Source: Lineus longissimus
Taxonomy: Eukaryota > Nemertea > Pilidiophora > Heteronemertea > Lineidae
Length of the DNA stretch: 64,000 nucleotides
Direction: 5' to 3'
NCBI RefSeq assembly: GCF_910592395.1
Contig: NC_088310.1
Location: forward strand, 12,469,501 to 12,533,500
Part shown: positions 12,851 through 54,765 of the stretch, one piece after another
How positions within the stretch are numbered: the stretch's first letter is position 1
Layout of the letters: each line of letters starts with the position of its first letter
The notes under the pieces: model-generated
Databases searched by the model: none
Told to the model about the DNA's origin: nothing
What the model saw: the letters and a program-made list of their open reading frames with translations, nothing else
Made by a program: the position numbers and the translations under genes

Positions 12851-12935
12851 AGGGCGAAGACTCCCCGGGATGAGGGTTAAAAGATCCTAAGTAACCTATT
12901 TATATATGACACTGAAGTGAATGTGGTATTAACAT

Positions 12936-19550: not shown

Positions 19551-20009
19551 GCCCAGCCCGGCGATTAAATTTTCTTTTGTTGCTTAGACGTCGGCTAACC
19601 GCATGTTGGATAATAGCTTATTCTGAATTGGCGTATAACTTTAGACAGGCGATGATCGGGCGATCAAGAAATTTGTACGCGCGTAACCCTTAAACAGTCG
19701 CTAAAACACCATATTGAATACGGCCCTTAGAGTTTACATGACATTTAAACGCGCCTATAAATATAAAAGGGCATGATCATATAGTGGATTATAGTACAAG
19801 TTATATTACGTTGTGTTCGTTGCGTTAGAGAGTCACGTGCATTTGATGAGCAAACTTCAACGGCAAAATGTATAAGCGATATAATGCTCAGACGCAATAC
19901 CAATATCATCAATTGTCACAAGTGATCCGCTTGATCTGGCTATCCTTGCCATGATCAGGCCTATTCTTGACAGTGGTAATCGTCGGTTGTTTGATTTGAC
20001 TATCCTTGT

Positions 20010-26670: not shown

Positions 26671-26687
26671 ACCACACAGGGTCAGAA

Positions 26688-27562
26688 CTACTGTGGCTCA
26701 TTGCGTCGGTTCGTAGGAAACGACTGGTTACCACCAAAGGAGTTGTAGCCACTTCTGTTGCCACCAAAGGAATTGTAGCCACTGTCCTGCGAATAGCTAT
26801 GGTAGTATTGTCCGCCTCTACCTCCTCTGAAGCCACCACGACCTCTTCCACTATATTGATGACCTGCCCACGAGCCACATTGGGCGTAGCTGCCTTGTTG
26901 CGATCTGGTTTGAATAGCTGCTATTTCAGCTGCATTACGAAGGTTAGTCAACGATGTGCCTGAAAACGTAGTAGTGTTTTTCTCCAGTGTCTTGAAAAAT
27001 TTCGAGGTATTATCGTCAAAGGTGCTCTTCACAACAAGACCGGCGTACTCGCCTTGTAGGAAATTTATCTGGGCCGACAAGATCAGAAATAACTGTTGTA
27101 AGTCCTCTTCAGACAACTTCACATGGTCGCTTACAGCGCCATCTTGCGTATGCGTACTGAACCACTTCAATGCAGTTTCTGTGCATCGAGCGCTCTTGCT
27201 CAAAATATTGATCGCCGTCTGTGCCTCGGCTTTGATGCCTTGCTTTGAATCGAACACTTTAAGCTCGTTCGGCAACTTAACTTTCACCAAAGAGTCCTTA
27301 AGCATCTCAAAGTCCCTCTGCAGGTCGGCTGCACTGCCGGCGTTATTCGTGCCAGTCGCAGTGGGACCAACACTGTGTGCATGCACTGTATGTGTATTAT
27401 TGCTCGGCCGTCGCGGATCTAGGCCGTGGCCGCCGACAAACTCATCAAAATACTTGGGCTCCGAACGTCGGGCCTCTATACCATCGAGTCTCGTAGATAA
27501 CTCTGAATGTCCTCTACTCAAACCTGATACTGTTGCCAGTACTCTGTCCGGCTTTTCGAATA
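26688..27562 (-). pseudogene. Gag-like protein of the second DIRS-type element, 5'-truncated
   Basis: The open frame starts inside the TTTTTAGCTCAGCTGA repeat that cuts it at about 27563, so the native N-terminus is lost. It has a predicted helical, moderately charged body and a C-terminal Gly/Arg/Tyr-rich tail with repeated GYNSFGGN units, typical of DIRS Gag proteins. It ends 17 bases before the RT frame. Confidence 0.65.
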
Positions 27563-33469: not shown

Positions 33470-35574
33470 GGCAAGAACAGTTCCTGGTTAGTTACATTGA
33501 TAATCAGTGGCACTTGGACTATCATGTTAGTCAATTGGGAAAACCAGGGCTTGGTCGGCCAGAAGGGGGCAACAATAATCCCTTCTGTCTGATCAGTGAT
33601 AATTTTCTGTAATACCTGCCCCACGAGTGCGAATGGTGGGAAAGCATAAATAACCCTTTTTTCCCACGAAATTGTGAAGGCATCCAGGAATGATGCTTCC
33701 GGATCTGGTCTCCAAGAGCAGAAAGGCTGAATTTTATAATTCAATCTAGTAGCAAATAAATCAATATCTGGGGAACCCCATACATGACACAAGTGTCGAA
33801 AGAGGGGGTCTGCCAGGCTCCACTCAGTGTCGTCCCGGAATTTCCTGGAAGCAGTGTCTGCTTCCACATTCTCCACCCCTGGGAGATGGACAGCTGACAA
33901 CCAAACGTTTTTCTCGATTGCCCATTCCCATATGAGTCTAGACATCCCATTGCAGTCTGGGGAGTGGGTAGAACCCTGATGATTTATGCCGGCCATGGCT
34001 GTCATATTATCCGTCAGAATTCTGATATGTTCATTCCCTGCTTTTGCACATAAGGATTTTAGACCCAATAAAATTGCATGAAGCTCCAGGATGTTGATGT
34101 GATGGGCCGCTTCTTCGACAGTCCATCTTGACCCTGCTGAAAGTCCTGTAACCTTTTCATATGCCCCCCAACCTATAGTACTGGCATCTGTTCTGATTTC
34201 TCTAGCCGGGTTTGACTGTTTAATAGGCCTGTCCACAGTTGGTAAGTTTTCATACCACCAGTGCAAATCTGCTCTCGACTTTTCTGACCAAGTCATCTTT
34301 GCTTTAAAGTTGTATGCATTTCTGACCAAAGCTTTACTTTTATCAAGTTCTAAGGTCTTACTGAAGAGCGGGGCAAACTTGTTGCCCTGTGTTGTAGCCA
34401 CCAGCGCCCCCGTTACTTGGGCCGCCTCTCTAATGGTCATTGACTGGCGCCTTAGAGTTTTGGATATCATATCTCTTAGGCCTACCACCTTTTTGGCTGG
34501 TAAGCTTACTCGCATTTAATGACTGTTGACAATGAACCCTAAGTGGTCAATTTCCCAAGTGCCATCTGGCACACACTTGGGTACATTTATCATGAACCCT
34601 AGGTCTTGGAGCAGTTCTGCTGAGATGGCAATGGCCTCCCCTGAGAACCACAATGTGTCCTCAACAGAAAGTGTGTCATCAAGATACCCTGATATGGTGA
34701 TGCCATACTGTTCCCTCAGATGGGACAGTGGCACTTTCATTATCTTAGTGAAAACCTGAGGCCCACAAGCCAATCCATTTGGTAGCACCTGAAACTCATA
34801 AGTTTGGCCCTCAAATTGGAAACGGAGGTATTTCCTATGCTCCGGGTGTATAGCCAGGCTATAGTAAGCATCAGAAAAATCCAAGCTAGCTAGCCAACTA
34901 TCCTTTTTTATGAGCCGAAGGGCTGTCTCCAAGGAATCCATTTTGAAATGATGGTATTCTACACATTGGTTTAATTCCTTCAAGTTGAGGATCATCCTAT
35001 ATTTTCCTTTATCTTTTTTCTCGCAGATAAAAATATTTGAGATGAATTCGCCAGGTGTGTGATCCACCTCTTTGATCACCTCTTTTTCTAAAAGGGTCTC
35101 TATCTCTGCCCTAACCACTTGTTTCTCCTTGTCTGAAAACCGAATGGGGTGTGGTGGCCTGTCTTGTACAGGCATGTATACAAATGGGATTTTAAGACCT
35201 ACAATATCCGCAAGGATGTAGCGGTCCGATGTCAGTTTGGCCCAGCGATGCACACTAGCACTCACCCTACCAGCTTTAAATTTCTGCCATTTATGCAAAT
35301 TCAAACGCAAATTTGGACTTATTGGCTCTATTTTGGCCATATTCGACCCTGAAGTCAACTTGCCTACCGATTTGTTTTCCCGGACGGTGCCGCCATTGGC
35401 ATTGTTGTTATTTACATCTGTTGAGTTGTCGGCTTGGGCTTCTTGCCGCCGCGTCCACGTCCTGCAGGGAGAAGAGGGTGAAACCGCATCATTAATATGT
35501 ACGGCAGGAGGCATATTATATTGTTGACGATCTTTAGTGCTCGAGATGTTAGAAGAAGAGCTGAACTCATCCAA
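33238..35574 (-). pseudogene. RT-RNase H of the DIRS1-like element, one in-frame stop
   Basis: The upstream part (35574-34519) has RT motifs KKDKGKYRMILNLKELN, ASLDFSDAYYSLAI, VLPNGLACGPQVFTKIM and GYLDDTLS. A TAA at 34516-34518 follows VNSH, and the same frame continues as MRVSLPAKKV. The downstream part holds RNase H motifs typical of DIRS1: IRTDASTIGWGAY, HHINILELHAILLGLKSL, ILTDNMTAMAGINHQG, LPGVENVEADTASR. It ends with the ID(L)FAT and IVAPFWPTKPW blocks. Only the single stop separates it from a full-length frame. Its last part overlaps the recombinase frame. Confidence 0.82.
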
Positions 35575-36731
35575 AAAAGGACTCGTTTGTCCAAACTGCC
35601 GTCCATGTCCACCATAACTACGACCTTGGCCCCAGGCCGAGTATGGGTTGTATCTGTACCCGTAAGGATATTAAGAGTTGTGCGGACGTTGGTTCCACTG
35701 TGAGTACCTTTGCTGCCCGCCGAACCCGCCTCGGGAGGAGGTCGTCAGGCGCCCGGCTTGGTTTACTGCCTTAATTCTGTCAGACAAGTCGTCCCCAAAC
35801 AGCAATTTAGATGATGTTGCGACCTTGGTTTTGCAAAGGGTGGCGTATTTCCCCATTAGGCTCGGCTTCACGGCGTCTCTCCGAAGCTGGTTCATCGTAG
35901 AGTTTGCCCCTGCGAGGAGCTTTACCCCATCAAGTGCAGCATCCACTAACTTCTGCTTTTCTACAACCATGGGCAAAGGCTGAGAAACCAAATCATTGGC
36001 AATTTGTACTAGCGGCACCGCAGCTCTGGACAGAAGTCCCTGTACTGATCGGAGTTTAAAGTCCCTTACTTTGGCGAATTTGGGGATTGCGTCAACCACC
36101 CCTTCATTCATTGTTACTTTGTGAGTGTTCAAGTTACCAGGTTTAGGATACTTGGTTAGCAAAGGCTTCATGGTATCTTTAAGTTCCTTTGCTTCCCAGA
36201 GGCCGTTCACAACAGTAGCCAAGTGCTCAGGTACCGGAGGTCCTTCTTCGTCCGGGTGCTCCTGGGCCCCAGAATATGTAGCCAAGAAATCATGCTCAGA
36301 GGGTTGCGGGGCCGTGCCAGGTGGCGAGGTCTCGTCAGAAGCCGGTTCGGGATCTTCCTCGGATGGGGACATGTCACCCGCCATGTCGTCTTGCATGTCC
36401 TTTGGAAAGTAGCCCCACCCAGGTGGGGGTTGATGGCAAGGCATGAATGGATCTGGGCCATATTCTGGCCACGCGTCCCAGGCTCAAATTCTTCAAATTC
36501 CTGGTGCATCTGTGTCGCCATTCTACTAGAGCCTGGGCATGCTGCAGGTGTGGCCTTGGCCGTGGATGTACATGGCTTCTTAGGAATAGTGAAGTTTGGC
36601 AATTTCGGCAAGATCGGCAACTTACTTGCCCCCGAATCTTTCTCGGGTACCTCCTTAGCTTTATTTTTAGCTTTTTCTTTGGCTTTTTCAGCCTCTTTTG
36701 GCGACTTTGCGCTTCTTTTATCTCCTGCCAT
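35575..36731 (-). pseudogene. Gag-like protein of the DIRS1-like element, frameshifted
   Basis: It starts at 36731 with a Lys/Glu-rich segment (KEAEKAKEKAKNKAKE). The frame changes near 36480, so that EFEEFE passes into YGPDPFMPCHQPPPGWGYF. It continues through an acidic Pro/Ser-rich region and a helical body (LLSRAAVPLVQIANDL, ANSTMNQLRRDAVKPSLMG, SSKLLFGDDL). It ends in a Gly/Arg/Gln-rich tail that passes toward the RT frame near 35650. It probably binds element RNA. The frameshift makes this copy non-functional. Confidence 0.68.
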
Positions 36732-37301: not shown

Positions 37302-38771
37302 TCAAGCAGAAAATGCAGCACAAGTACTATCCCTCAGAGAGACAAACTGCCGATTACTTACACTGACCGTGTATTGGGGGTTAGGGTACACAAGTGATAA
37401 AACATCAATGACTGCAGAATTGTGTAGAGCTGGATGAACTAAATATGCATGGAACTGAGAAGAATAGGTTGCTGTGGTCAACTCCGAGATGAAAAAGAAT
37501 ACAACCTCATTATGAATGATAATGTCAACTACCTTCCCAAATCTTGGCAATTCTTCAAGTCTCAACACCGTGGCATTTTGTGCCGATTTCTTGAGTGGAG
37601 AAGTTACACCTACTTTGTACGTGTACCCAGCAATCTTAGCAAGTTTGGTTCTGCTTAACTGTAATATGTCAGCATCATCATCATGCATCAGATACTCAGC
37701 AACTTTCTGATATCCTTGATCTGTCTTAGGAACACGGGTTGTCCCATGGTACTCATCACCAGCATAAAGGTATTTTTGAATCAGTCTTGCCAAGACATTC
37801 AACAAGCTGCAAACACAAAGCTTCTTGATGTGATGTAGCTAGAGTCATTGGTACATTCTTAAAACACTTACTACGGCCAATCAGTTGCTTGAAATAACTG
37901 TGCTTTCCTTCAAAACGCATGCACCAAACATCCCGTGGTGGACCAAAGTCAACAATTTGCTGAGGCAGATGAACTGAGAAGTGGTGTTTGGGTACAAGCA
38001 TCTGTGGGTGGAGTAAAACAAAACCCCGGAGATATTCTCCTATCATGTACCTAAGGTAGGAGATATCTTCTCTCAAGAATGTGAAACTCATACACATGGA
38101 TGTCACCTGAAGAAGTTTCAGGTAGTTCTGGTAGTGTTCATCCTCAACATCAAGATGCAGTTCAATTAAAAAAGGCAATGCACAAGCTAGGTTCCTCATC
38201 AGTGCCGATGATTGACTCAACTTCCTGTCCCCAACCACTCGAGCCCTTTCTATCGGAGCAGGTCTGTCTGATTCTGCTTGTTCAAAGTCAAAAGCATCCA
38301 GAAATTGATTTATCCTGTCAACAGTTATATCAGTCACCTGCAGTACATGTTGAAGTAGCAGCATTGTCTGCATGTTTAGGATTCCTTCAAAAAGTACATG
38401 CATAATATCTTGAGTGAAACATTTGGTCACATCAAAATGATCAACTTTATCCAGGACACTGAGGTAATTGATTCCAAAATCTCTTGACAATGCCTGACGC
38501 TGTTGTTGGTTTACATCATCTAGACGTGCACAACACACTCTGTGAGATGCAAGGTCACGAGTCTGAAACTGTTCTGCATAAAACCTCTGTGAGATGTCAT
38601 TCTCATTACACATACAAGGCCTGCACTTGCAGAATGCAAACCCAACACCTTCTTTGAATCCAGCAATGAAATTAGAGCCAAATTTGGATAAAACCTATGA
38701 ATCCGTGTGACATGAGAAATGAATATAGAAATATTCAGGGTCTGAAATTCACACAAGTTACAGTTTAACAT
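37302..38771 (-). pseudogene. EnSpm/CACTA-like transposase-related gene, decayed
   Basis: A C2H2-like start (NCNLCEF...HVTRIH) at 38771-38690 leads, after a frame change near 38613, to the block FDVTKCFTQDIMHVLFEGIL, then PKHHFSVHLPQQI and CMRFEGKHSYFKQLIGRS. These resemble animal EnSpm/CACTA-type proteins. The usual several hundred residues between the zinc finger and this block are missing. A further frameshift near 37800 precedes the C-terminal segment (LPRFGKVVDIII...FHAYLVHP), which ends at 37302. The large deletion and frameshifts indicate a dead copy. Some of the breaks might be introns. Confidence 0.65.
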
Positions 38772-39858: not shown

Positions 39859-40128
39859 CTATAACAAGAAAAATGTGCCCGAGTCCCCCAGCACAACACA
39901 CATAACATGTTATAAGAAAAAAGGAACAATGTTTGCTTGAATATACCAGTGAGATAGGTTTGTAGTTTACAACGCAGGACCTTGAGGAGAGCAAAAAGTT
40001 ACACCCCTGTTATTTTCCCTGTGATGCCCTGCAACTTCAAGAGGATTGACACTTCAACTCACCCAGAAGTATTAAGGTAGCAGGAAGGGTTGGGTGTTTG
40101 TGGTTTCTGAGTCTGAGGGGGTTGGTGT

Positions 40129-40192
40129 CTGTTGACTGTGCTTTAAGAGAGACTAGGCATGGCGCCAGTCTCTCTTAAAGCACAGTCAACAG
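40129..40192. repeat. 26-bp-arm perfect inverted repeat
   Basis: CTGTTGACTGTGCTTTAAGA... at 40129-40154 is the exact inverse of 40167-40192, with a 12-base spacer. The right arm is also the start of the first copy of the 889-bp tandem duplication. It is a candidate terminal structure of the Helitron-like element. Confidence 0.85.
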
Positions 40193-41936
40193 GCATTTGG
40201 TCTAAGTATTTGGGTTTTGATTGTCATGGCTGTACCCCTGTAAAAGTCAGAGGAGGAAAAGTTTGGAATGATGAAAGCATTGAAGAAGAAGAAATGTTAT
40301 TATTGAGGAAAGGAAAATTTATTATGAGACTAGAAGGCAGTGTCCTCACTTGATTATTTTGAAAATGGCGGTCTGAACACATTAAAAGGTGGAACATGGC
40401 ATTTTATGGACTTTGAAGTGTTCCGCAGTTAAAGGGAGACTATAGGCAGCAGCTAGGTAGGCAAGATAAAGTGATACAAATTTGCCAATAGGGGTCAGTC
40501 ATATCTCACAGTACGTGGAAATGTTCACACTTGTACATGGAATGTATTAAGAGCCGCATCAAACATGACCAAATGCCCTTATTGGGCATATCAGTCATCA
40601 AAAGATAGTCAACCTCACCCCCCTGTCGCTGCCTATAGTCCCCCTTTAAAAAGTCAATTGAGGTGTATGACTCGAGCGTGTGAGCGATATTGACATGTTT
40701 AAAATTTGAACAACGTATAACATATTTACAATGAGGAGATAACAATATCACTATTATCAGCAGTATTATGCATTCACTGTGGGAACATGTTGGCAAATGA
40801 CTAGTCATGTGGATGAGTGGCGTACAGTAGTGTTCAGGAACTTGTGCATGGACAATGGAAGTGGATAATATGACTGACTTGGGAAGAGCAGGATGTTTTG
40901 AGCATTACCAAAAGGCTGCATAGAGGCGAGGAGAAGGCAAGAGGGAAATGACTTTAAATGTAGAAAATGTCCAAAAAAATGCTGAGCACTACTGTATATG
41001 ATGAGTTTATGTTACCAACATGAGCAGTGAACAATATCAGCAGTGTTATGGCGCCAGTCTCTCTTAAAGCACAGTCAACAGGCATTTGGTGTCAGTATTT
41101 GGGTTTTGATTGTCATGACTGTACCCCTGTAAAAGTCAGAGGAGGAGAAGTTTGGAATGATGAAAGCATTGAAGAAGAAGAAATGTTATTATTGAGGAAA
41201 GCAAAATGTATTATGAGACTAGAAGGCAGTGTCCTCACTTGATTATTTTGAAAATGGCGGTCTGAACACATTAAAAGGTGGAACATGGCATTTTATGGAC
41301 TTTGAAGTGTTCCGCAGTTAAAGGGAGACTATAGGCAGCAGCTAGGTAGGCAAGATAAAGTGATACAAATTTGCCAATAGGGGTCAGTCATATCTCACAG
41401 TACGTGGAAATGTTCACACTTGTACATGGAATGTATTAAGAGCTGCATCAAACATGACCAAGTGCCCTTATTGGGCATATCAGTCATCAAAAGATAGTCA
41501 ACCTCACCCCCCTGTCGCTGCCTATAGTCCCCCTTTAAAAAGTCAATTGAGGTGTATGACTCGAGCGTGTGAGCGATATTGACATGTTTAAAATTTGAAC
41601 AACGTATAACATATTTACAATGAGGAGATAACAATATCACTATTATCAGCAGTATTATGCATTCACTGTGGGAACATGTTGGCAAATGACTAGTCATGTG
41701 GATGAGTGGCGTACAGTAGTGTTCAGGAACTTGTGCATGGACAATGGAAGTGGATAATATGACTGACTTGGGAAGAGCAGGATGTTTTGAGCATAACCAA
41801 AAGGCTGCATAGAGGCGAGGAGAAGGCAAGAGGGAAATGACTTTAAATGTAGAAAATGTCCAAAAAAATGCTGAGCACTACTGTATATGATGAGTTTATG
41901 TTACCAACATGAGCAGTGAACAATATCAGCAGTGTT
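40159..41936. repeat. 889-bp tandem duplication, about 99% identical
   Basis: Two copies start with ATGGCGCCAGTCTCTCTTAA at 40159 and 41048 and differ at only about a dozen bases. Each holds a plus-strand frame of 64-71 codons that starts in the unit (MAPVSLKAQSTGIW...) but resembles nothing I know. The duplication is recent. Confidence 0.9.
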
Positions 41937-42211
41937 ATGTTTTCCGTGTGGTAGGTTACCAGAAGTTGCCACAAACGGAGCAGCACTTTGAGGTAATTAG
42001 TCACATGGACGGTATGTAAATAGTGTATAATTTGAGCATTATGATTTGGTTGTACAGTACAGACTGTCTCCGGTGAGGCAAGAATGAGACATGATATCTG
42101 AAGAAAGGAATGTCTGATGTGGATTAAGTAAGAGCTGCGTAGTTTGAGATTCGATCGTTATGAAAGTCTATTCCCTGAACTGTGGTACATGATGGCCATG
42201 GTAGGAGTAAG

Positions 42212-43896
42212 TTAGTTGTCATCGGACACGTCCGAAGTTGGTGGTGTGCTTTGCTGCCTGGTTGATGTGCTTGAGCGCTGAATGACGAGGCTGGGTGCAG
42301 GGCGTTTTGGTCTCCTTGTTGTGGAACGTATGTCGGGCAGGTCTGGTGATTTTTGCCGGGATGTCGAAGGCGCCGGATTGTTCGCCAGGTCTGGTTGCGG
42401 TCGTCGTGCTGCTGTTGGCCTTTGGTTGTGGCCGATGCGCAATTGGCAGGGACGTTCGACTGCTATTTCAACTTGGAGGCGTGGATTGGCAATGTGTGGT
42501 AGGTGGTACAGTGGGGCGTCCTCGAGGATTGCAGCTGGTCGGACAGACGTGATGTGGAATGTGGGCGGCTGCACTTCTTCGTCGGTGGCTTTAATACCAG
42601 GCTTGTACCAGCCGCAGATTTCCCAAGAGATGTTGTTGGTAGCATAGTGCTGCAGCACATTAGTGATTGCTGCCCTGAATTCTAGCATGGGGATAGGTGT
42701 ACTGGTTGTCTGCAAGAACAATGGTGATGTTGTTTAAAACATGGTGTTAATAGTTTCATTTCTGCATTCAGTGGGAGTTGGATGCTACATCTGGAGGTCA
42801 GGTTGTAAGACGTGAAGGTATGGCCAGTAACAGTTCCTGAATAAACATTATCATGGGTTTCGGTACTGTAAGAAAGAAAGGGTGGTTGAGGAAGGGTGCT
42901 GATGGTCTGCACTGATACGGTTGTGACAGTTGTTTTGGGGATGGACTATATGTGGTAGGCTGTCTTACCTTCATGGCAGCTGAGGTCAGGAACAACTTCG
43001 TGAAGTTAGTCGACTTGAACGCCACTCGTGATATGTTAGCTGTTGCTGAGGTGATGCGGCAGGATAGGAGGCGTGTGTTGATGTCCTCTGTAACTAATGC
43101 TGGGCATGGTGACAGCTCGTCATGCTGTCCATCACAAAGTTGTGCCCCGCAGCCAGTGATAATGTTGGCTTTTGTAATGCGGATATCAGCATTTGTGACG
43201 AAGATGGCCTTCGGTACCATTGTGTCCACATATTCCATGACATATGGTCGTGTTTGGCGGATCGTCATGGTGGGTTTCAGTGGGAGTAGTGGCTGTTCCA
43301 CAGTCAGGGTCGGTACATTTTTGATGGATGATTTGCGCTCTGGTTCAAACAGACCAACAGTGGCTCCAACCCATGGCACATTCTGCACTTTGAAGAGGAG
43401 TTTGCTCTGTAGAGAAGTTTCTGTCATAATGTAGAAGAGGGATCCTTCTCTGATGTCTCTGAAAGGAGATGAATAGGTGAGTATAGGAAGAATGGTGACT
43501 GCCTGTCATAGTGGTGGTTGTTACAAGGACATTAATTGTTTATGTCGACTAATATGTTCATGGAAATGTGATGAGGAATGTCATGTTTATGGGAATGTGA
43601 TGACAATAGTTTGGGCCAATTTAGCTTGGTGCAGAGTGTTGATGTTGTCTACTAACCTCAGGAGGATTAGCCTGTCATACGGCTTGTCCAGTTTGCTTGC
43701 TTTTCCAGGCTGTGTGGGCTTGCGTGATTTGTTTTTCTTTATTTTCAGGATTTCTGCTGTCATGCGTGATTCATCGGAGAGATCCGGGTCGGTAACGAGT
43801 TCACTGATGGTGATGTCTTGTATGTCTTGGTTGTTGAAAATGTCAATGGCTCCTTGTACGTCCCCGTGTTCAATGTATTGGGCCAGCATGGTTGTA
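42212..43896 (-). CDS. Second gene of the Helitron-like element, three exons, 406 aa, unknown function
   Basis: Exons are 43896-43657 (start codon at 43889), 43458-42969 and 42709-42212. All have canonical borders (TTTCAG/GTTAGT, TTTCAG/GTAAGA, TTGCAG), and the frame is kept throughout. The N-terminal part is acidic, then basic (KIKKNKSRKPTQPGKASK). The middle is beta-rich with a Cys pair (CGAQLCDG). The C-terminal third is Pro/Arg/Ser-rich (RRPKRPAPSLVIQR). No stop interrupts it. It lies 217 bp behind the Rep-helicase stop codon on the same strand, so the two probably share a transcription unit. An OB-fold DNA-binding role, by analogy to RPA-like genes in other Helitrons, is possible, but I cannot show it. 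Confidence 0.7.
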
Positions 43897-44112
43897 CTGA
43901 AATGAGAATGTAAGAGAAATATTGGAACATTTAAAAGACGCCATAAGGTGGATATTTTACAATGCAAAGGATATTGTATGTGAGGAGCCTTTTGCTGGTT
44001 CATATGGAGATATAAATGCCTGGATTATGATCTGGAAAGGAATGGATTTTGTTAATAACAATACATGGAGAGGGAATGTTTGTACCTGTTAGTTATTTTA
44101 GTGCTGCAGGTT

Positions 44113-47100
44113 CTACAAGATGTTTCCCAGTTGTTCCCATATGAGTTGTGGGTGTCTTGCACGGAACGTGTTGAAGACGATGCGGCCATTTGTTAGGATG
44201 CTTCGTGTGTTAGGGGCAGCATCCCTTCCATTGAAGCGGTGCCACATGGATTCGAACCGTTTTCGTTGAGTAATGTTCTCTGCATCCAGAGCCGTGCCAG
44301 GGAAGCGATATATGACAACAAAGCATCGCCAAGGACACAAGTTAGGATTGTTTGTGAGAGCCGCTCCGTAGCCTGTGTTATGTTGTCTGAGGCGTCTGTT
44401 GATATTGCTGGTTTCGCCGACATAAGCATATTCTCTATTTTGTGTGCTTACTAACATGTACACTACACCAACGTCTGCTTGCGGCAAGTGGAATGGTGGT
44501 GGTGGAATTGGGTTGTTGCTATGGTTTAGTTCTGGTGCAACTGCCTGTGACTGTATTGCGTGCAGTACATGGTCAATATGATTTGTCCATGGGGGAGTCT
44601 GCTCCAACAATTTCCTTTGTGCCAGCATAGTGTCATCATGATCTTGGGAAACAAAGATGATGTTGTCCAATGTACGCACTCGGCTAATAAGAACCAGGAG
44701 TTGTTGCCTGTCCCACAGTCTGTAGCGATGATTTTGTAGTGAGATTTGGGTAGCAATCTTGGAACATGTTTCGCCAAGAGCTCGATGAACAGTTATGCTT
44801 GCATAGTAGGTCACACGGTATTGTGTGCGGCGTGCCTTTGCCTTCCCATTACCAACGAGGATTAGAGGACATGGAGTTGGTTTGAGGCTGAATCTTTCCC
44901 AGCCAGGCATGTCTGGGATGTCGTGTGCATTGACATTGCGTTCTCCAGGTGGGACAAGTTTAAGCCACAACTTGTGGTTTTCGCCATGCGGCAGTTCTTG
45001 TACTATACAAAGTTGTCCTTGTGAGAAGCGGGGCAAGGTGCGTGTGGAATTGGGGTTGTTGTATGTTAAACGAAGGATTTGATTAATGAAGAGGACTAAT
45101 TTGGCTTTTTCTGCGCAATGCTTTGATAGTTGGTTTTGTACTGTTGCATTGGCCTTCGACCAGATTCCAGTTGAACTTTCGGCCTCATCATAGGCTGCAT
45201 ATGTGGCAGAAGTGACTGTTGGGTCGCTAACATTTTTCTCTAAGTAGTTCTGTTCTATTTCCTGACATGCAGCTTTTGTGCCAACAATTTTCAGAGCATC
45301 ATCTGGGACATCTGACCACGAGGGGACGCTGTGAGGCAGGCACCTGCGTTGCAGGATGTGGAGAATATCTTCGACTTGGTCGTCAGGTATTGTAGTAGTG
45401 CGCATACAGTCAATGATGAATTGCAGGTCAGCGTCGCGTGCAGATCGTACGAACTTGGACATTGGTATCAGTTTGAAGGAGCATATCATGTGGTGACTAG
45501 TCCAGATGGGTGTTCCCTTCACTGGTGGTAGCTGATGTGGATCGCCGGATGCTATAATTGTAACACCACCAAATGGAGCTTGGCACTGACGAATGATTCT
45601 GAGTAAGGTGTCGATGACGGCTAGCATGTCTGCTGAAAGAAGACCTATTTCTTCGAAGAAGAGGAGTTGCAGCTTCTGTAGAAAGGCAAGCCTTACTGGG
45701 TATCTCTGGAGTTGACTGAGAGCTTTTTGAACAATGTACTGAACAGTGTAGAAGTTGTTCTGAAGGACTGGTATACCGAAGACCATGTGTATATGCGTTC
45801 CGCCTAATTGCCTGGCTCGTTCGGAAGTGACAGCTACAAGTAATGTGGGTATGTTAAGTGATAGTGCATATGTGTTGGCGATGAGGAGGATGTGTGTTTT
45901 TCCGCAGCCTGGTGGTCCAAGTAAAATGTAGGATAATTGGTTGTTGTGCCGCTGTGACGAGCTGTCAATGGCAGTCGCACACACTTGAAGTGCATGGGTT
46001 TGTTCAATGAAACTTTCTTCACTCTGTCCTTGGGCCTGAAGTACACGTGGTTGGAAGGCAATCGCACCAAGCTTGAAGTCGTCAATGGGTGGGAAGTCGG
46101 GAATGAGCTGCTCGCTCAAAATGTCTATAGCACTATTTCTGATGAACTGCTGGTATTGTTGAAGAGCGGCTTTTGCAGCATCCTCAATTTCCGCATCTGT
46201 TGCCTTGGGCAGTGGGGAGTCTGCGACTGTGCCGAGGAGAATAGTTTGTAACGCTTGGAGTGCATCTGCCAGAATTTTGGAGAATGTTCGTGACCCAACT
46301 GGTTGCCAAATGAGTTGTTCTAATACATAGCGGCGTGCATGGCTTTTCACATCATTTTCGGTTGGCACCTGCTGTTGTAGTAACTGAGCATTGTGAAAGG
46401 ATGCCACCATATTAGGAGCACTGTATAAGTCCAGTTCCGTAACAAACTCGCCCATTGTAAGCAGGATGTGCACAAAGAATGCTGGTATGTTGGATGGACT
46501 AGGACTGTGCAGCACGACAACATTGCGCTTGGTTTTGGTTGTGTCAACGAAACGTAGGTAGTGGTCAGTGTGGAGTAGGTTCTGACGGTCGGCTGTGAGT
46601 GGTAAGAAGATATGAGCATATAGTTGCTGGGCTATAGTTGCGTGGTCATCATTTGGAGATGTTGTGATCTCATAGATATAATTTGCTGCCTCGAGTACAT
46701 GCGCATGCCTGAGTTTGACAGTACGGCCAGTGCCATCTAGCCAGTAGGAAAGACTGAGAACTGGATCAGTTGTCGCCTTTTGGTTCCTTTCCCATGTGAA
46801 CCACCTGAGGTACAATTCCAAGTTGCAGAAAATAGTGAGTTCAGGAGGGCGTATAGAAAACGAACTGGTGGTGTCTAAGTAGAAGTTGCCTTCCTGATAT
46901 GACTGAATAGCTGTTTCCTGTGAGGGTGTGAAGTGGCGCCAATTCGGATAGTTCATTCGTTGTTCCACAGTGTCTGGGACTCCTCCTCCCCCTTCTTGTC
47001 GTTCTCTTTTCTTTGGTGCACATTTCTTGACAATGGCGTAGCGGTATTCTGGAGCTTTGGTGGAGGCGTTTGTGTAATCACAGCTGGCAAGTACATATGG

Positions 47101-50100
47101 GAACTGTAAGGAGTACCAGATCATCTCTGTGAGTGGTAATTCTCGCCCTAAGGTCCCCGATCGTTGATTGGCATTGTGTAGTCGTTGGCCTGTTATCTTT
47201 GAGTTCACGAGGTGGTGAGCTTCCACATGGACTGCATTACCAGAAGTTGACGGATGGACACTAACATGCCTTTTTTCATCACTGCCAGCTGCGTACTTTG
47301 CGAGGTAGGATACCTGAAACTTTCGATCGCAGACCTGTACATTGGTTGAAGCTTTCATCGCAACGAAGAGCCTGGGTACAGTTGGTACAAAGTGTTCATC
47401 TGGTTGTGCTGGATAATGCCACATGCCAGCAGAGAATTCTGGTCCTGTGTACCAGTGGTGTTTACATGGACATAGTGTTGCTAAGTCGAGATATGCTAGG
47501 CGATCGTAAGTGGCATCATCATATAGGTTTGTGGCGCTGTTGAAAGAGTAATGGAAGCTAGGCGAATGTCGTGGCACACGACAGATTAGGGTATCATCGT
47601 TCCCCTTTCGTTTCATGCAACGACTGTTAGCCATTAAGCAGCTGTGCTGTTGAAGTGTTGACGCTGCTTGTTGCAGGTGAGTATAGTCCGCATCATTCTG
47701 AACCAGGCCGTCTTGGAGGAGAGTTTGGAAATCTGTTCCTGCATCCGTTGACCACATGGTAGCATTAGAGCAACGTACACGGGACAAAGTTTTGCTGGTG
47801 GGCTCATCTGCAACAGTAATGCCTGCATGAACGTGTGGGCGATTGCCCAAAGCTCCAGCGCTTTGGAACTCGAATCGCATCCAAGAAGATTTAACTGGTC
47901 CCAGGATTTGTTCATGGCTGCTTGTGATGTAATGCCAAATGTAGTGAACTGTTCGTTCCCATGCCCTGGTAAGGAGAACGGAGTAGTTTTGCAGAAGGTG
48001 TGCAAGGCTGATAGCCTCATTTCTGGTTGCCTCTTTGGTAATTGCTGCTCGAAGTGGTGCGACACCTGGAGTGCCACTGTCGTTACAGGTGAAGGTGAGG
48101 AAGTAGGTCCAAGCACCCTCAGTACGCAGTGTTGCTACTAAACGATTCACCTGCTTTTTGGCATCTAGTTCATCGAATTTGAGCAAGCTCTCCTGGGCGT
48201 CAGGACAAATTTTCTGGGTGTTTCTCACAATAGCCTCTAAGCCTCGATGACAGGCGACAGCTGCTGTGTTGCGGTTTAGATCACTGTTGAGAAGTGTGTC
48301 AAAGGCGAATTGCAAGTAGCTGTAATCATGAGAGGTCAGGATGCTGTTGTCCAAAATTCGAACTGTCATGTGATCTTTAAGGGATGGCAAGACTTTCAGG
48401 TGATTGTGGTGAGTGACATTGGTGAAGAGTGCTGAAGGCAACGCTCCTACAACGGAGTTGTTATGCGTAGTCCAGAAAATACGTGGGAACATCATACCCT
48501 CTGGATATATGAGTGGTACACTCCAGTCAGGCGACGAGCTGCAAACATTCTGCAACATTTGTAATGTCGCCAAAGGAGGCTTTTGAGATGTTGCAGTTCG
48601 TGTCATGACACGGAGATGATGGTTCAGGTAGAAATGGCCAGAAGTAGCAGAACTGGAGTCGGCAGCAAAGAGTGGTGTTACGCTGGTGTCAGTGATTACT
48701 GGACAGTAGTCATCATCTTCATTTGTTGCGCCGAGTGGATAAAGTGTGGACGGGTCAGTGAGGTGACTTGTTTCGCCTGGTGTGTCCATCTCATCCACGA
48801 ACTGTACTCTGTAGTCATTAGGTGCATCATCGACGTCAGATGGGGTGTTCAAGTGGTGTTGGTGGTTCACAGCAGATGCTGCATGCCCGTCATTTGAGGT
48901 CTGGACGAACGGGCCATAATGGCCCACTGTAAATGTGTGGGAGTCAGTGTTGCTGAATGCCGCTTTGAAATGCTTGCTGCAGACGCCAATGGTGCACTGT
49001 TGGTCTGGAAAACCATGTGGGCAACACCAGTGAATTGGACTGGTACAGGTTGGAACTGAACATTGAATATGCTGGTGGTGACGCTTTCTGATGAGAAGTT
49101 GGTCGTGACTGATGCAGTATCCTTGGACTTGTCCACAGCATCGTTCAATCATTGCTCTCTGAGCTGGCTTGATTCTGTACTTAGCACGTACATAAACAAG
49201 TAAGAGGTGCTGTCCTGGGTTCATGTCATGCTGCATTGTCCCACATGATTGCCAAGTAGAGACGTCCTCAAACCATCTTGAACTGAAGAAGCAATGTGCA
49301 TTTACTGTCATCCCAAGCATGAGGCGCCATGTGCCGTGGTGAAGTTCAGTTGGCGCATGTGCAGGTGGATCAGGTGGGAGGTGGTCACGCCTGGTGACGA
49401 GTATTATATTGTCATTGTCATTAGACCTTGGAAGTGTTTGTAGGTCATTGACTGTGTTAATTGTAATAGCCTGTACTCCGGTACAGAAGTCCTGCAGCGA
49501 TGTAGCTAACTGTTCATGGATACTGTTGGAATTGGATGTTGGTTGCAGGGAATCTAGAGCCTGTCGTTCCTTTTGCGTTAGGTCTTTGCTGCAGTTGGAA
49601 TGAATGAAACGCTGGATGGCAGTGGTGAGGTGACGTTGTGGTGCGACGTTGACTGTAGATTTCCATATAGCTGTAAGTAAGGCCTCATATAAGTGGGTGC
49701 TGTTCATGAATGCCGTGATCAGTGCATATTTGAATTTGCCCAGTGGCCTGGCAATGCGGTGGCCAAGAAATTGTGCTGGTGAAATAAGAAATGGGGAGTG
49801 CCCACTTGCTGTGGCTGGATGTACAATAATCGCACAGTCCTTGGGTTCAGCAGAAACTGTTGAAGGATCACCTTCAGCTCGGTTGAGGCCAGTGCTACGT
49901 GTTTTAGCATTATTATATGCCTGTGAAAGCAGGAATGCATCTTCGACATGGACATATGTCCCTGAATCTTTATGTTCTTGGACAAGGTGTGGTGGGGGTT
50001 TGCGGTCATGGGCGGAGTAGTGTTCGAGGAGTGGTGATACAGTTGTCGCCAAATGTGAACTTTGCTGAGTGAAATGTTTTATTTCTGGACGATTTGCCAG

Positions 50101-51087
50101 CACGAGACCTTTAGCCAGGGCTATATCCTCACTCGTGTGGTATGTGTCGACCTTTGGTACGATTTTGAATGTTGATAAACCGGCGGTGCTGCCTGTTTGC
50201 TGGTAAACGGGAAAGGATGTATTGCAGGAGTTGGACTGACCAATACGAATGTTGTTGCCAGTTATGACTGCAGGTGCCATAACATCTGGAGCCAAGGGAG
50301 CCACATTTCTCAGAATGGGGTTGGAAGGCACATGTAACCAGGCCATGTCTGAGTGAGCATGTACTGATGGAGCACACATCAATATACAGAGAGTGTTGTC
50401 CTTGTCTACCAAAAGAGTGGGAGCTGCTGTCCACTGTAAGTCATGGTGGGGTTTTAACCAATCGGAACGAGCACCACTGAAGAAATATGGATCAGCATCA
50501 AATGATTTAAAGTGTTCCGCAATCCTACTGAAGAATTGGACTGCTGGGACAGCTCGCAGTTTACCACGATGCAGATCATCCGGGAACATGAAGCAACCCA
50601 TAGGACACCTAACAATTGGGTAACAGAATTCGTTCAGGGCTGAAGTTAACTGACCCAGTTGACCACTTTGTATGCATTCATGAAAAGTGCCGAGTTGTTT
50701 AGTAACATCCTGAAAATGTGGCTGCAGGTGTTGGGATCGTTGCATTTCAGCTGTCCAAATGTCCAGCACTGGTAGCCACGAGTCTCTGAGGGGGTGAGGA
50801 AGGAAGTGCATAAGTCTTTCACTATTTGCATACCCAGGTTTACTGAGGCATGTCCATACCACAGCAGGCCAACAATCCGCCCATATAGCAGTGCGGAGTT
50901 TCTGTGTTGGAGGGCAGACAGAGGAGCAGCATTGATGACAAACCAGCTGACCAGGTACCATACCACATTTGTCACCATATTGGCGCTTGATGATATGTTT
51001 GTTGTACGAATTGTCTGCATTTAATTCCTTTAGAGTGATGGGGTAGTGAAGAGTTGATGTGCGATGGCAGATAGCACAGTTGTTCAT
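44113..51087 (-). CDS. Helitron-like Rep-PIF1 helicase with C-terminal GIY-YIG nuclease, about 2,324 aa
   Basis: One uninterrupted frame. The start at 51087 (MNNCAICH) is preferred because a TTTTCAG acceptor lies 10 bp upstream. Domains in order: zinc-binding CAIC...CHQCC near residues 4-55; Rep motif FLTFTCND near 995; the FEFQSAG...PHVHAG block with the HUH pair at about 1085 and 1087; the two-tyrosine motif SYLAKYAAG near 1263; PIF1-type Walker A GPPGCGKTH near 1729, Walker B LLFFEEIG near 1810 and GDPHQLPPV near 1853; and a GIY-YIG domain with VYMLV near 2209, YVGETSNINRRLRQH near 2224 and the catalytic Glu in RFESMWHRF near 2279. Rep nicks and joins DNA and the helicase unwinds it for rolling-circle transposition. 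The nuclease role is unknown. Confidence 0.85.
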   Translation of the reverse strand: MNNCAICHRTSTLHYPITLKELNADNSYNKHIIKRQYGDKCGMVPGQLVCHQCCSSVCPPTQKLRTAIWADCWPAVVWTCLSKPGYANSERLMHFLPHPLRDSWLPVLDIWTAEMQRSQHLQPHFQDVTKQLGTFHECIQSGQLGQLTSALNEFCYPIVRCPMGCFMFPDDLHRGKLRAVPAVQFFSRIAEHFKSFDADPYFFSGARSDWLKPHHDLQWTAAPTLLVDKDNTLCILMCAPSVHAHSDMAWLHVPSNPILRNVAPLAPDVMAPAVITGNNIRIGQSNSCNTSFPVYQQTGSTAGLSTFKIVPKVDTYHTSEDIALAKGLVLANRPEIKHFTQQSSHLATTVSPLLEHYSAHDRKPPPHLVQEHKDSGTYVHVEDAFLLSQAYNNAKTRSTGLNRAEGDPSTVSAEPKDCAIIVHPATASGHSPFLISPAQFLGHRIARPLGKFKYALITAFMNSTHLYEALLTAIWKSTVNVAPQRHLTTAIQRFIHSNCSKDLTQKERQALDSLQPTSNSNSIHEQLATSLQDFCTGVQAITINTVNDLQTLPRSNDNDNIILVTRRDHLPPDPPAHAPTELHHGTWRLMLGMTVNAHCFFSSRWFEDVSTWQSCGTMQHDMNPGQHLLLVYVRAKYRIKPAQRAMIERCCGQVQGYCISHDQLLIRKRHHQHIQCSVPTCTSPIHWCCPHGFPDQQCTIGVCSKHFKAAFSNTDSHTFTVGHYGPFVQTSNDGHAASAVNHQHHLNTPSDVDDAPNDYRVQFVDEMDTPGETSHLTDPSTLYPLGATNEDDDYCPVITDTSVTPLFAADSSSATSGHFYLNHHLRVMTRTATSQKPPLATLQMLQNVCSSSPDWSVPLIYPEGMMFPRIFWTTHNNSVVGALPSALFTNVTHHNHLKVLPSLKDHMTVRILDNSILTSHDYSYLQFAFDTLLNSDLNRNTAAVACHRGLEAIVRNTQKICPDAQESLLKFDELDAKKQVNRLVATLRTEGAWTYFLTFTCNDSGTPGVAPLRAAITKEATRNEAISLAHLLQNYSVLLTRAWERTVHYIWHYITSSHEQILGPVKSSWMRFEFQSAGALGNRPHVHAGITVADEPTSKTLSRVRCSNATMWSTDAGTDFQTLLQDGLVQNDADYTHLQQAASTLQQHSCLMANSRCMKRKGNDDTLICRVPRHSPSFHYSFNSATNLYDDATYDRLAYLDLATLCPCKHHWYTGPEFSAGMWHYPAQPDEHFVPTVPRLFVAMKASTNVQVCDRKFQVSYLAKYAAGSDEKRHVSVHPSTSGNAVHVEAHHLVNSKITGQRLHNANQRSGTLGRELPLTEMIWYSLQFPYVLASCDYTNASTKAPEYRYAIVKKCAPKKRERQEGGGGVPDTVEQRMNYPNWRHFTPSQETAIQSYQEGNFYLDTTSSFSIRPPELTIFCNLELYLRWFTWERNQKATTDPVLSLSYWLDGTGRTVKLRHAHVLEAANYIYEITTSPNDDHATIAQQLYAHIFLPLTADRQNLLHTDHYLRFVDTTKTKRNVVVLHSPSPSNIPAFFVHILLTMGEFVTELDLYSAPNMVASFHNAQLLQQQVPTENDVKSHARRYVLEQLIWQPVGSRTFSKILADALQALQTILLGTVADSPLPKATDAEIEDAAKAALQQYQQFIRNSAIDILSEQLIPDFPPIDDFKLGAIAFQPRVLQAQGQSEESFIEQTHALQVCATAIDSSSQRHNNQLSYILLGPPGCGKTHILLIANTYALSLNIPTLLVAVTSERARQLGGTHIHMVFGIPVLQNNFYTVQYIVQKALSQLQRYPVRLAFLQKLQLLFFEEIGLLSADMLAVIDTLLRIIRQCQAPFGGVTIIASGDPHQLPPVKGTPIWTSHHMICSFKLIPMSKFVRSARDADLQFIIDCMRTTTIPDDQVEDILHILQRRCLPHSVPSWSDVPDDALKIVGTKAACQEIEQNYLEKNVSDPTVTSATYAAYDEAESSTGIWSKANATVQNQLSKHCAEKAKLVLFINQILRLTYNNPNSTRTLPRFSQGQLCIVQELPHGENHKLWLKLVPPGERNVNAHDIPDMPGWERFSLKPTPCPLILVGNGKAKARRTQYRVTYYASITVHRALGETCSKIATQISLQNHRYRLWDRQQLLVLISRVRTLDNIIFVSQDHDDTMLAQRKLLEQTPPWTNHIDHVLHAIQSQAVAPELNHSNNPIPPPPFHLPQADVGVVYMLVSTQNREYAYVGETSNINRRLRQHNTGYGAALTNNPNLCPWRCFVVIYRFPGTALDAENITQRKRFESMWHRFNGRDAAPNTRSILTNGRIVFNTFRARHPQLIWEQLGNIL

Positions 51088-51230
51088 TGCATGACAGCTG
51101 AAAATGAATGTGATATCATAGAACTGAGGCGTTTGCAATGAGACTATAGGTGAAGTAGACGCAAGGAGTGAAATGAGCCATCTTCCAGTGACTAATATAC
51201 AGAGTAAGGGCACTGGGTGTTCTTAGATTC

Positions 51231-52675
51231 AGCATTGAATGCATTCCTTGTACAAGCGTGAATAGTGTGGACATACAGTGAGAGGTGAGAGACCCCTATT
51301 GACTACTTCTTGTAACTTTATGTTGGATATTATATTAGTATTGAACGTCTAGTCATGGAATATGAAGAAATTGAAGTTGTAGGCATGGAATATGAAAAAT
51401 TATTCAACGGTGAAAGACATTATTCCATGAGGCTTTGCCGTGATCGCAAAGGACGCAACGCGATTGGTTCACATGCTAATGAGGTATGATAATGATAATT
51501 ACCTCTATAATGCTACTTGGATAGCAACAGTGCAACAGTGGTCTATGTCAATGTGTGCCTGTAATGTCAATGAAAGTATGATGAGGTGATGACGATAGTG
51601 CAATTATTTAATATTGGCAAGAGATCATACTACAACATAGGTCTTGTTTTTGACAGATGACTGTGCGACATTCCCATTGGGTCTTGTTAGAGTCAGCGCT
51701 GCATGTATTCCTTGTACAAGCTTGAATAGTTGTGACGGACTTTGAGGGGTGAGAGACCCCTATCGGCTACTTCGTCTAACTTTATCTTGCCTACCTAGCT
51801 GCTAGCAATATTGGCCCTTTATCAAGACTGAAACCCACTGTGCGGGGCTAAGAAATTACCTTTATAATCCTTTATAATGTTTATAATCCTATAACCTTTA
51901 TAATCCTAGTTGGATAACTAGTTGGATAACTGTGGATATCTGTGGATGTGTGCCTGTAATGATAATGAAAGTATCATGAGGTGATGACGATAGTGGAATG
52001 ACGAAATATTGGAAAGAGATCTATTCCTAGAAGAACATATGTCCTGTTTTCCATGAGGCTTTGCCGTGATCGCAAAGGACGCAACGCGATTGGTTCACAT
52101 GCTAATGAGGTATGATAATGATAATTACCTCTATAATGCTACTTGGATAGCAACAGTGCAACAGTGGTCTATGTCAATGTGTGCCTGTAATGTCAATGAA
52201 AGTATGATGAGGTGATGACGATAGTGCAATTATTTAATATTGGCAAGAGATCATACTACAACATAGGTGTTGTTTTGACAGATGACTGTGCGACATTCCC
52301 ATTGGGTCTTGTTAGAGTCAGCGCTGCATGTATTCCTTGTACAAGCTTGAATAGTTGTGACGGACTTTGAGGGGTGAGAGACCCCTATCGGCTACTTCAT
52401 CTAACTTTATCTTGCCTACCTAGCTGCTAGCAATAGTGGCCCTTTATCAAGACTGAAACCCACTGTGCGGGGCTAAGAAATTACCTTTATAATCCTTTAT
52501 AATGTTTATAATCCTATAACCTTTATAATCCTAGTTGGATAACTAGTTGCATAACTGTGGATATCTGTGGATGTGTGCCTGTAATGATAATGAAAGTATC
52601 ATGAGGTGATGACGATAGTGGAATTACGAAATATTGGAAAGAGATCTATTCCTAGAAGAACATATGTCCTGTTTT
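51231..52675. repeat. 626-bp tandem duplication plus a partial copy
   Basis: Two near-identical units start CCATGAGGCTTTGCCGTGAT at 51425 and 52051. A more divergent partial copy of the inner segment (CCTTGTACAAGC...GAGAGACCCCTA) precedes them near 51240. The units lie directly upstream of the Rep-helicase gene. Confidence 0.85.
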
Positions 52676-52676
52676 G

Positions 52677-53240
52677 ACTACGTGGCGCATTTTAGAATCA
52701 GCAGTGAGCACTGTGTGTAACATGGTGGAGGCAGCGAAGATAATATCTGTGTCGAAAGTATTGTTATAGGGCCTTCCCTAGGCCCATGGGGTTAAATTTA
52801 CAATCCACGATTGAAAAGACGTAAACTGTGTCGAAAATATTGTTATAGGGCCTTCCCTAGGCCCATGGGGTTAAATTTACAATCCACGATTGAAAAGACG
52901 TAGTTTGATCGCATTCAACTATAAATCCATTGACGAAATTTTGGAAAGAGATCTATTCCTAGAAGAACATATGTCCTGTTTTGACTACGTGGCGCATTTT
53001 AGAATCAGCAGTGAGCACTGTGTGTAACATGGTGGAGGCAGCGGAGATAATATCTGTGTCGAAAGTATTGTTATAGGGCCTTCCCTAGGCCCATGGGGTT
53101 AAATTTACAATCCACGATTGAAAAGACGTAAACTGTGTCGAAAGTATTGTTATAGGGCCTTCCCTAGGCCCATGGGGTTAAATTTACAATCCACGATTGA
53201 AAAGACGTAGTTTGATCGCATTCAACTATAAATCCATTGA
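52677..53240. repeat. 307-bp tandem duplication containing 79-bp repeats
   Basis: The units start ACTACGTGGCGCATTTTAGA at 52677 and 52984. Within each, a 79-bp segment (CTGTGTCGAAARTATTGTTA...) is itself doubled, with starts at 52747 and 52826 in the first unit. No coding. Confidence 0.88.
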
Positions 53241-53697
53241 ACAGTTGTGTTCCTTTAGTCAACCGATGACCTTTTGTTGGGCCATGATCGGGGATTGTAA
53301 ACTGTAAATGTATTATGGACTGGGAGACGAGGGAAACACAAGTGAAATAGACCAAAACAAGTGATTTTGGGGCTTTGGTTTAGACGCATGCCCCACATGC
53401 GCCATGCGGGATTATACGGTTCATGTGAACTTGTTGACATCTATCTACATGATCTAGTGCTGTTATTGGTCATGGACATGGTAGGCCTAATCATCATGGC
53501 TATATGTTTCAGGAAAAGCTCGGAGTAAAATGAACTGCCGATGAATAATGATGTTGTTCATGTTTACCATGTTTACTAGTACATAGTCATAGGGTATGCA
53601 CTGGCCAGTGCACTTTCTGCACGTCGTCATGGTCATGTACGTGATACCTTGCATATTTTGTTTTTTGAATGCGCATGCTTTTTGGGCAAAATCACTT

Positions 53698-54152
53698 GTA
53701 CCAACACTAATGAATAATGTGTTCTTATCCCTATGACTCCATACACAGTGAGGGCATTGTCCCATTCCCATCAAATGCTAACTTATTGTACCGTATTAGG
53801 GTGGAAGTTGGGGAGCAGATACCTACCGTTGCACGCCTGTCATCATAAGCAGTGATGAGCTTAGCGCGATATGGAACATTCTTCAGAAACTCAAGCGAGG
53901 GAAGTCTGCTCATTAGCATATCTCGTACCAACACTAATGAATAATGTGTTCTTATCCCTATGACTCCATACACAGTGAGGGCATTGTCCCATTCCCATCA
54001 AATGCTAACTTATTGTACCGTATTAGGGTGGAAGTGGGGGAGCAGATACCTACCGTTGCACGCCTGTCAGATAATCAGCAGTGATGAGCTTAGCGCGATA
54101 TGGAACATTCTTCAGAAACTCAAGCGAGGGAAGTCTGCTCATTAGCATATCT
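53698..54152. repeat. 227-bp tandem duplication
   Basis: Two copies start GTACCAACACTAATGAATAA at 53698 and 53925 and differ by a few small changes. No supportable gene. Confidence 0.88.
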
Positions 54153-54200
54153 CGCGCACTGCTAATTCTTGTCAAACATCGTAGGGAAATCGTAATGGAA

Positions 54201-54225
54201 AACGTCTGGCTTTGCGCCAGACGTT
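54201..54225 (+). repeat. 10-bp-stem hairpin followed by CTAA
   Basis: AACGTCTGGC and its perfect inverse surround a five-base loop. CTAA follows at 54230-54233, and the next base is T. Canonical Helitron 3' ends have a short hairpin a few bases before CTRR, with T in the target. It is on the strand opposite to the Rep gene, so its relation to that element is uncertain. Confidence 0.6.
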
Positions 54226-54530
54226 GAGACTAATAAGTGAAGAACTAGTAGGTAAACAATTTCTACTTGCGCGAGACTGCTCTGATAAAATTATCATTGC
54301 AGAGACTACGGTGACGTAGACATATATTTTTTACAATCAAAAATGCCCTCAAAAGACGACATGGAATGATTATTTTATTGATATTTCCTACTATATACCT
54401 TCCAATTATCACTTTATACGAATAGATCGGCGTTAGGTCGCATACTTTTCTTTCCTGGAGACACTATAAAGCAAAATAGTTGCAACCCCGTAAATGCGCT
54501 ATAAGTCCAATAATAAGTGACGGTGACCCG

Positions 54531-54765
54531 TTATAAATGTTTCGCCAGCTTCGCTTTTTTGCCGCTACGCGGCGTGTTGGGCCCTTGCGTCCAGTCTACC
54601 TCGTTGAAGCAAGGATATACATTAATTTTCTTCACAGACATTGCTGGCTCTGTGCCGTTTATCCATGCTTTCCGTTGTGTGTACGTACTTCGTAGAATTT
54701 CAAGAATGTTTTTCCTGTCTTTGTTAACCTTTTTGATCTCTTCTTTAAGTTCACACACCTGTCTG
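54531..54765 (-). CDS. Putative terminal exon of a small coiled-coil gene
   Basis: The minus strand after a TTTCAG acceptor reads VCELKEEIKKVNKDRKNILE and onward to FNEVDWTQGPNTPRSGKKAK, then a stop. The first half is strongly helical and charged. It is probably spliced to the exon at 55198-55378, although the simplest GT donor leaves a phase mismatch. Function unknown. Confidence 0.45.

Follow-up and report, generated by a model that had tools for sequence, protein, structure and literature searches.

The Rep-helicase-GIY-YIG protein

We analysed a 64,000-nucleotide stretch of the Lineus longissimus genome (contig NC_088310.1, positions 12,469,501 to 12,533,500; hereafter the window, in whose own numbering coordinates are given), and we describe in it a Helitron-like element whose Rep-helicase protein continues into a GIY-YIG nuclease domain. 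The protein is encoded on the minus strand (44113..51087; 2,324 codons from the ATG) in a frame that stays open to 51222; the plus-strand reading of the same interval contains 93 stops. Residue numbers refer to the listed open reading frame, taken from stop to stop (44113-51222), in which the ATG at 51087 is residue 43. A first-pass annotation of the letters had reported an unbroken frame of this length with the motifs PHVHAG and YLAKY, a PIF1 helicase and a C-terminal GIY-YIG domain bearing its Tyr, Gly, Arg and Glu; all of these were recovered by Pfam and alignment, with the frame placed on the minus strand. It had also let the fusion depend on profile matches to Helitron_like_N, PIF1 and GIY-YIG, and all three families score above their curated cut-offs, arranged in Helitron order.

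The Rep core (residues 1019-1129; 47827..48159, minus strand, as are the following features of the protein) matches Helitron_like_N at 34.8 bits versus a cut-off of 28.9, and the Rep part also gives a Rep fold match. Alignment places the HUH motif PHVHAG (H1127, H1129) at 47827..47835 and the two-tyrosine motif YLAKY (Y1303, Y1307) at 47293..47307. The PIF1-like helicase match (52.1 bits versus 25.9; residues 1746-1900; 45514..45978) is joined by matches to PIF1 helicases of the PDB and to Helraiser; helicase motifs, with GPPGCGKT as Walker A, extend past the Pfam match to about residue 2195. The GIY-YIG match (34.9 bits versus 22.6; residues 2249-2300) lies within a domain of about residues 2246-2366 (44116..44478), whose fold is of the SLX1 type, including the helices after the core, with the signature YVGETxNxxRRLxQHN...PW. 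Residues Y2252, Y2264, G2266, R2274 and E2321, which we take to be the catalytic positions of the GIY-YIG fold, are invariant across seven aligned close members of the family.

About 900 residues, with conserved Cys/His, precede the Rep domain. Pfam gave no match in the window protein to EEP (AP endonuclease), the position after the helicase being occupied by GIY-YIG, and none to OTU; an NCBIfam scan gave no match above cut-off. The SLX1 protein has a zinc-finger part, for which Pfam found no match in the window protein, no separate search being aimed at it. Because some 2,300 codons are open, three domains above cut-off stand in order, and a second copy of the protein differs by only 8 amino acids, the frame and the fusion are far beyond chance.

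Ends, copies and target of the element

The whole element spans 14,529 bp (40063..54591, minus strand), running on the coding strand from 5' GACGCAAGGGCCC... to ...AATACTTCTGG 3'. These limits were set by aligning copies on other contigs of the host genome (391 Mb in 30 contigs were scanned), which stop at the points corresponding to window positions 40063 and 54591; the 5' end is ambiguous by one G (GACGC/ACGC). The second intact copy lies on contig C14. Contig C15 carries a diverged, broken relative that retains the GIY-YIG letters, and the other scored protein matches are pieces. The 5' end gave 1,116 first-look candidates in the host genome, and all 40 that were scored have 98-100% identity, a number of such ends that is a lower bound. 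Many related shorter or rearranged copies share the ends of the element. The smallest copy seen, of 843 bp on C14, retains about 540 bp from the 5' end, 154 bp of internal sequence and 153 bp from the 3' end. In a comparison that covered the 1.8 kb behind the 5' end and reached the 3' end at a minority of loci, 28 of 30 loci (all but the window and the C14 copy) lack or have rearranged some blocks of the intact copies. At 5 of the 30 loci the 3' end abuts a 5' end (...TACTTCTGG|ACGC...), as circles, or rolling on beyond the end, would produce. On contig C1, family 5' ends lie exactly 3,161 bp apart twice (9737604/9740765 and 9782303/9785464); these are probably head-to-tail arrays of a non-autonomous copy.

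A hairpin with 29-nt arms and a 12-nt loop stands 63 nt before the 3' end (40126..40195, minus strand), and the 201-nt stretch containing it folds with a z of -9.1. Folding of the 5' end was no better than that of shuffles (z -0.12), and its visible palindrome GCCGC-GTA-GCGGC was not singled out. No inverted match of at least 7 exact bases was found between the first 70 and the last 200 bases of the element. Its 3' part contains a tandem duplication (40159..41939; 889-bp unit, 99%), and its 5' part contains three (51423..54154: 51423-52050/52049-52675, 52626-52933/52933-53240 and 53695-53925/53922-54154). The plus strand has more G than C from about 40,000 to 53,500, i.e., over nearly the whole element. 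A short repeat inside the element occurs on each side in opposite orientation (40429-40649 and 41318-41538; inverted, 51189-51325, 51675-51789 and 52300-52414); its left copies have 22-nt inverted arms ending in TTAA and look like a MITE. Long terminal inverted repeats were considered and dropped, since the flank similarity falls on this repeat and the true ends lie outside it.

The insertion site was read from flanks. The three bases before GACGC are CTN in 33 of 33 distinct non-tandem 5' flanks (CTG here, 54592..54594, minus strand), with N being G in 25, T in 4, A in 2 and C in 2; copies around protein matches (C8, C11, a small copy on C14, C16 and C20) are also flanked by CT, with N being T, C or A. 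Among 12 distinct 3' flanks, the second base is T in all 12 and the first is a purine in 11. The target is thus CTNG^RT, with no clear target-site duplication. The same four-letter word precedes the 5' end, closes the 3' end and recurs in the target, which suggests a single reader, the Rep.

Behind the main frame, a region with conserved open blocks (42215..44024, minus strand; blocks 43590-44024, 42801-43505 and 42215-42733) is that of a second, probably spliced gene. The diverged C15 copy has the same block order, with 43, 53 and 45% identity over 89, 77 and 99 residues. Judging from the sequence, the block borders look like introns, and one junction gave no consistent splice pattern. The gene had been suspected by look of being RPA-like; no Pfam family matches its blocks, and no protein is claimed.

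Relatives and place of the family

Three protein searches returned 23 proteins. Setting aside P0012, a piece from the N-terminus, and two Helentron-type proteins of fish that served as outgroups (P0009, with EEP; P0013, with OTU and no EEP listed), and adding the window protein, we obtained 21 members. The GIY-YIG letters look intact in 18 of them and are degenerate in P0005 and P0008, and P0007 stops before the domain. Relative to the GIY-YIG cut-off of 22.6, P0020 scores 21.6, P0014 24.5 and P0008 18.5; P0021-P0023, three Styela clava proteins named 'uncharacterized', score above it. The fusion put forward by the first-pass annotation is therefore supported beyond this locus: the same domain order, which it had proposed to look for elsewhere, returns across a deep family, Styela clava included, and the nuclease is in one frame with Rep and helicase in both intact copies and in relatives. 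Two scans of viral contigs with family alignments gave 83 and 43 pattern-matching stretches, none of which encodes a relative.

A tree built on Rep and helicase together sets all 21 members apart from the two fish outgroups by a 100/100 branch, and a second tree of 14 rows repeats this split at 100/100. The Rep/helicase phylogeny suggested earlier separates the family from these two Helentron-type proteins; with no Helitron2 or full canonical RepHel among its rows, the tree is unrooted in that respect. P0005 and P0008 fall on separate branches; P0008 and P0020, both on long branches, may be joined falsely. GIY-YIG identity to the window protein tracks helicase identity to it. Our reading of the GIY-YIG history would be one gain and two losses. 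The presence of the fusion in distant relatives suggests an old Helitron-like branch that has been overlooked.

The defining part of a Helitron-like element, an HUH Rep that carries two tyrosines and is joined to a PIF1-type SF1 helicase, is present, as is the GIY-YIG fold of SLX1 type with its Tyr, Tyr, Gly, Arg and Glu positions; head-to-tail junctions, a 3' hairpin and the lack of a clear target duplication point to rolling-circle movement. PMC5148889 describes (i) Helitron1, with 5' TC, 3' CTRR, a hairpin 10-12 nt from the 3' end and insertion at A^T; (ii) Helitron2, with an asymmetric terminal inverted repeat, hairpins at both ends and insertion at TTTT^T/C; and (iii) insertion at TT for Helentrons and at TNAT^T for two Fusarium groups. 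Canonical Helitrons (Helitron1; Helraiser) share with our element the HUH/Y2 Rep and SF1 helicase, the Rep fold match, a 3' end of the CTRR form (CTGG here), the 3' hairpin, head-to-tail junctions and no clear target duplication; they differ in the distance of the hairpin (63 nt here), the 5' end (GACGC/ACGC here) and the target (CTNG^RT here), and they lack the GIY-YIG domain and the pre-Rep residues with conserved Cys/His. Helitron2 is set apart by its inverted repeat, folded 5' end and target. Helentrons, which are Helitron2-type elements that often carry OTU, share a nuclease fused at the C-terminus of RepHel, OTU (in the Styela member P0023) and many same-ended copies; however, their nuclease is an AP endonuclease fused after the helicase, their target is TT, and here the 3' end is CTGG and no asymmetric terminal inverted repeat was found. 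IS91-type bacterial rolling-circle transposons likewise insert beside a short motif resembling their own end, but are prokaryotic and are not known to have a PIF1 helicase or GIY-YIG. By its defining parts the element is Helitron-like, and by the features tested it falls outside Helitron1, Helitron2 and Helentron.

Taken together, this makes it likely that the window contains a complete, recently active and autonomous Helitron-like transposon, from a lineage whose RepHel bears a C-terminal SLX1-type GIY-YIG nuclease. A broader reading, which we advance tentatively as slightly short of an even chance, is that of an ancient major rolling-circle lineage beside Helitron1 and Helitron2/Helentron, with an SLX1-like tail, a Rep that reads CTNG, insertion at CTNG^RT and a branched-DNA nuclease of its own that finishes single-strand insertion.

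Several observations weigh against the first of these readings. Codon changes between the two intact copies (6 synonymous, 8 not) give no sign of purifying selection. On the tree the intact-GIY label needs three changes, a number that 92 of 500 label shuffles also attain, so that the tree alone does not prove a single origin of the domain. The excess of G at N of the target is biased, since the query by which the loci of most of the 33 flanks were chosen starts with CTG itself. Helitron_like_N was matched in 6 of 8 scanned members at E up to 1, with no match in the three Styela clava proteins, and the 34.8 bits of the window Rep are low beside scores of up to 220 in the same genome.

The leading alternative is that the family, instead of forming a separate lineage, is a Helentron sub-branch whose AP endonuclease tail was swapped for GIY-YIG. 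Among the Styela clava members, OTU exceeds its cut-off in P0023 (26.6 versus 23.3 bits), is below it in P0022 and is absent from P0021, and Helentrons are reported to encode OTU proteases (PMC4067079). All 21 members, however, stand opposite P0009 and P0013 across the 100/100 branch, with Rep identities to these two of 14-20% in the four members compared, and we regard a sub-branch as unlikely, at perhaps one chance in a few.

The 151 Helitron_like_N matches of the host genome form several classes by score, with frames that are open over as many as about 3,030 codons; the genome holds many other Helitron families, some intact-looking. One match of 209.9 bits has EFQKRGLPHCH and YLLKY, presumably canonical Helitron motifs.

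Proposed mechanism and role of the nuclease

Domain order, the second intact copy, precise ends, junctions, same-ended copies and target are read directly from the letters, and from them we infer a mechanism. The HUH/Y2 Rep would nick 3' of CTNG at the 5' junction and 3' of CTGG at the 3' end of the element, the latter flagged by the hairpin, while the PIF1-type helicase would peel the strand off. A circle with joined ends CTGG|ACGC may then form, and the Rep would nick a fresh CTNG^RT site and insert one strand. The GIY-YIG domain would then cut branched or flap DNA arising from strand displacement or from the insertion of a single strand, in the way that SLX1 acts on branched DNA, or else the opposite target strand. 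SLX1, a structure-specific endonuclease, has the same fold and signature, the difference being that here it is fused to a transposase. Cutting of branched or flap DNA is the most likely activity, and it is the least certain step of the mechanism.

It is rather unlikely, although not far behind the Helentron alternative, that GIY-YIG serves as a tail for structure or DNA binding and need not cut, with Rep and helicase sufficient for transposition, as they are in canonical Helitrons. P0005 and P0008 keep the GIY-YIG outline and long open frames with the active-site letters gone, which counts against a catalytic role, as catalysis may be dispensable; in addition, the reconstructed canonical Helraiser moves by its Rep-helicase transposase (PMC4778049). 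Conversely, the letters are retained in 18 of 21 members, including P0006, whose Rep and helicase are only 26-29% identical to those of the window, and the two losses fall on separate branches, a pattern that suggests independent losses and not a domain without use.

A further alternative, somewhat less likely again, is that GIY-YIG picks or opens the target like homing enzymes, or nicks the opposite target strand as is thought for the GIY-YIG of Penelope. Target choice would agree with the sequence target CTNG^RT. Target-strand nicking has a parallel in Penelope-like elements, which encode a GIY-YIG nuclease and are grouped, in PMC5753468, with elements whose nuclease-cut end primes insertion. 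These elements share GIY-YIG within a transposition-enzyme protein, but differ as reverse transcriptase elements. To our knowledge, they have neither Rep nor helicase. The first-pass annotation had suggested a nuclease that chooses sites or cuts the second strand; site choice is the less likely role because the domain folds like SLX1, which cuts branched DNA.

Insertion might instead duplicate a 4-bp target (CTGG/CTNG), with ACGC...TACTT as the element proper. Copy L048 is nested in another family copy, and copies that lack this insertion give the empty site: it is ACTGGGTGTTG at 18 further places and ACTGGGTGTTC in both intact copies, with a few more copies differing, and the filled site is ACTG-GACGC...TACTTCTGG-GTGTTG. 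CTGG thus occurs a single time in the empty site and on either side of the insertion in the filled one, and this pair, taken by itself, would also fit a duplication. Yet all three both-end-read copies with a 5' flank other than CTG (the small C14 copy, CTT; C11, CTT; C20, CTA) still end in CTGG. CTGG is therefore part of the element, and the junctions can be explained without a duplication, which renders the alternative improbable. A chance or assembly fusion of a Helitron with a neighbouring GIY-YIG gene (e.g., that of a Penelope), favoured by nothing except the novelty of the arrangement, is refuted because two copies, each on its own contig, share the frame, and because the letters are retained in the diverged C15 copy and in relatives from separate sources; its probability is negligible.

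The first-pass annotation knew of no described GIY-YIG fusion, and we likewise found no printed description of a Helitron with GIY-YIG among the titles and abstract openings listed from the open-licence literature, a scope outside which lie subscription journals and Repbase, so that prior naming is possible. In PMC3627910, PMC6431247, PMC5718144, PMC5753468, PMC12910113 and PMC13269885, which mention both Helitrons and GIY-YIG, the latter concerns Penelope, rotifer Terminons, homing enzymes, a Mariner-linked nuclease or a figure-legend domain list. The element would represent a recently active member of an old, unnamed Helitron-like family with a nuclease of SLX1 type, the role of which we infer. 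Fusion of a nuclease to RepHel arose with at least two unrelated nuclease folds, and the family supplies a profile with which proteins now labelled 'uncharacterized' can be annotated. As far as we know, second-strand handling by Helitrons after one-strand insertion and the role of the Helentron endonuclease are open questions in the field; both become testable because the element is recently active and intact in two copies, its ends are exact and its target is defined, tandem junctions are present, and the relatives of its nuclease have known biochemistry.

Other elements in the window are all on the minus strand. A 312-aa open frame (37756-38694) has no Pfam match at E up to 0.001. Three separate reverse-transcriptase frames (RVT_1; 11381-12886, 25267-26697 and 34516-35670) are presumably DIRS/Ngaro-like, judging by look, and 20326-21195 is a retroelement integrase fragment (Integrase_H2C2). 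Two transposase frames were also found: one at 18519-19583 (DDE_Tnp_4, 100.3 bits), which we take to be Harbinger-like, and an open 656-aa frame at 4418-6388 (DDE_Tnp_1_7, 276.7 bits), presumably of piggyBac type.
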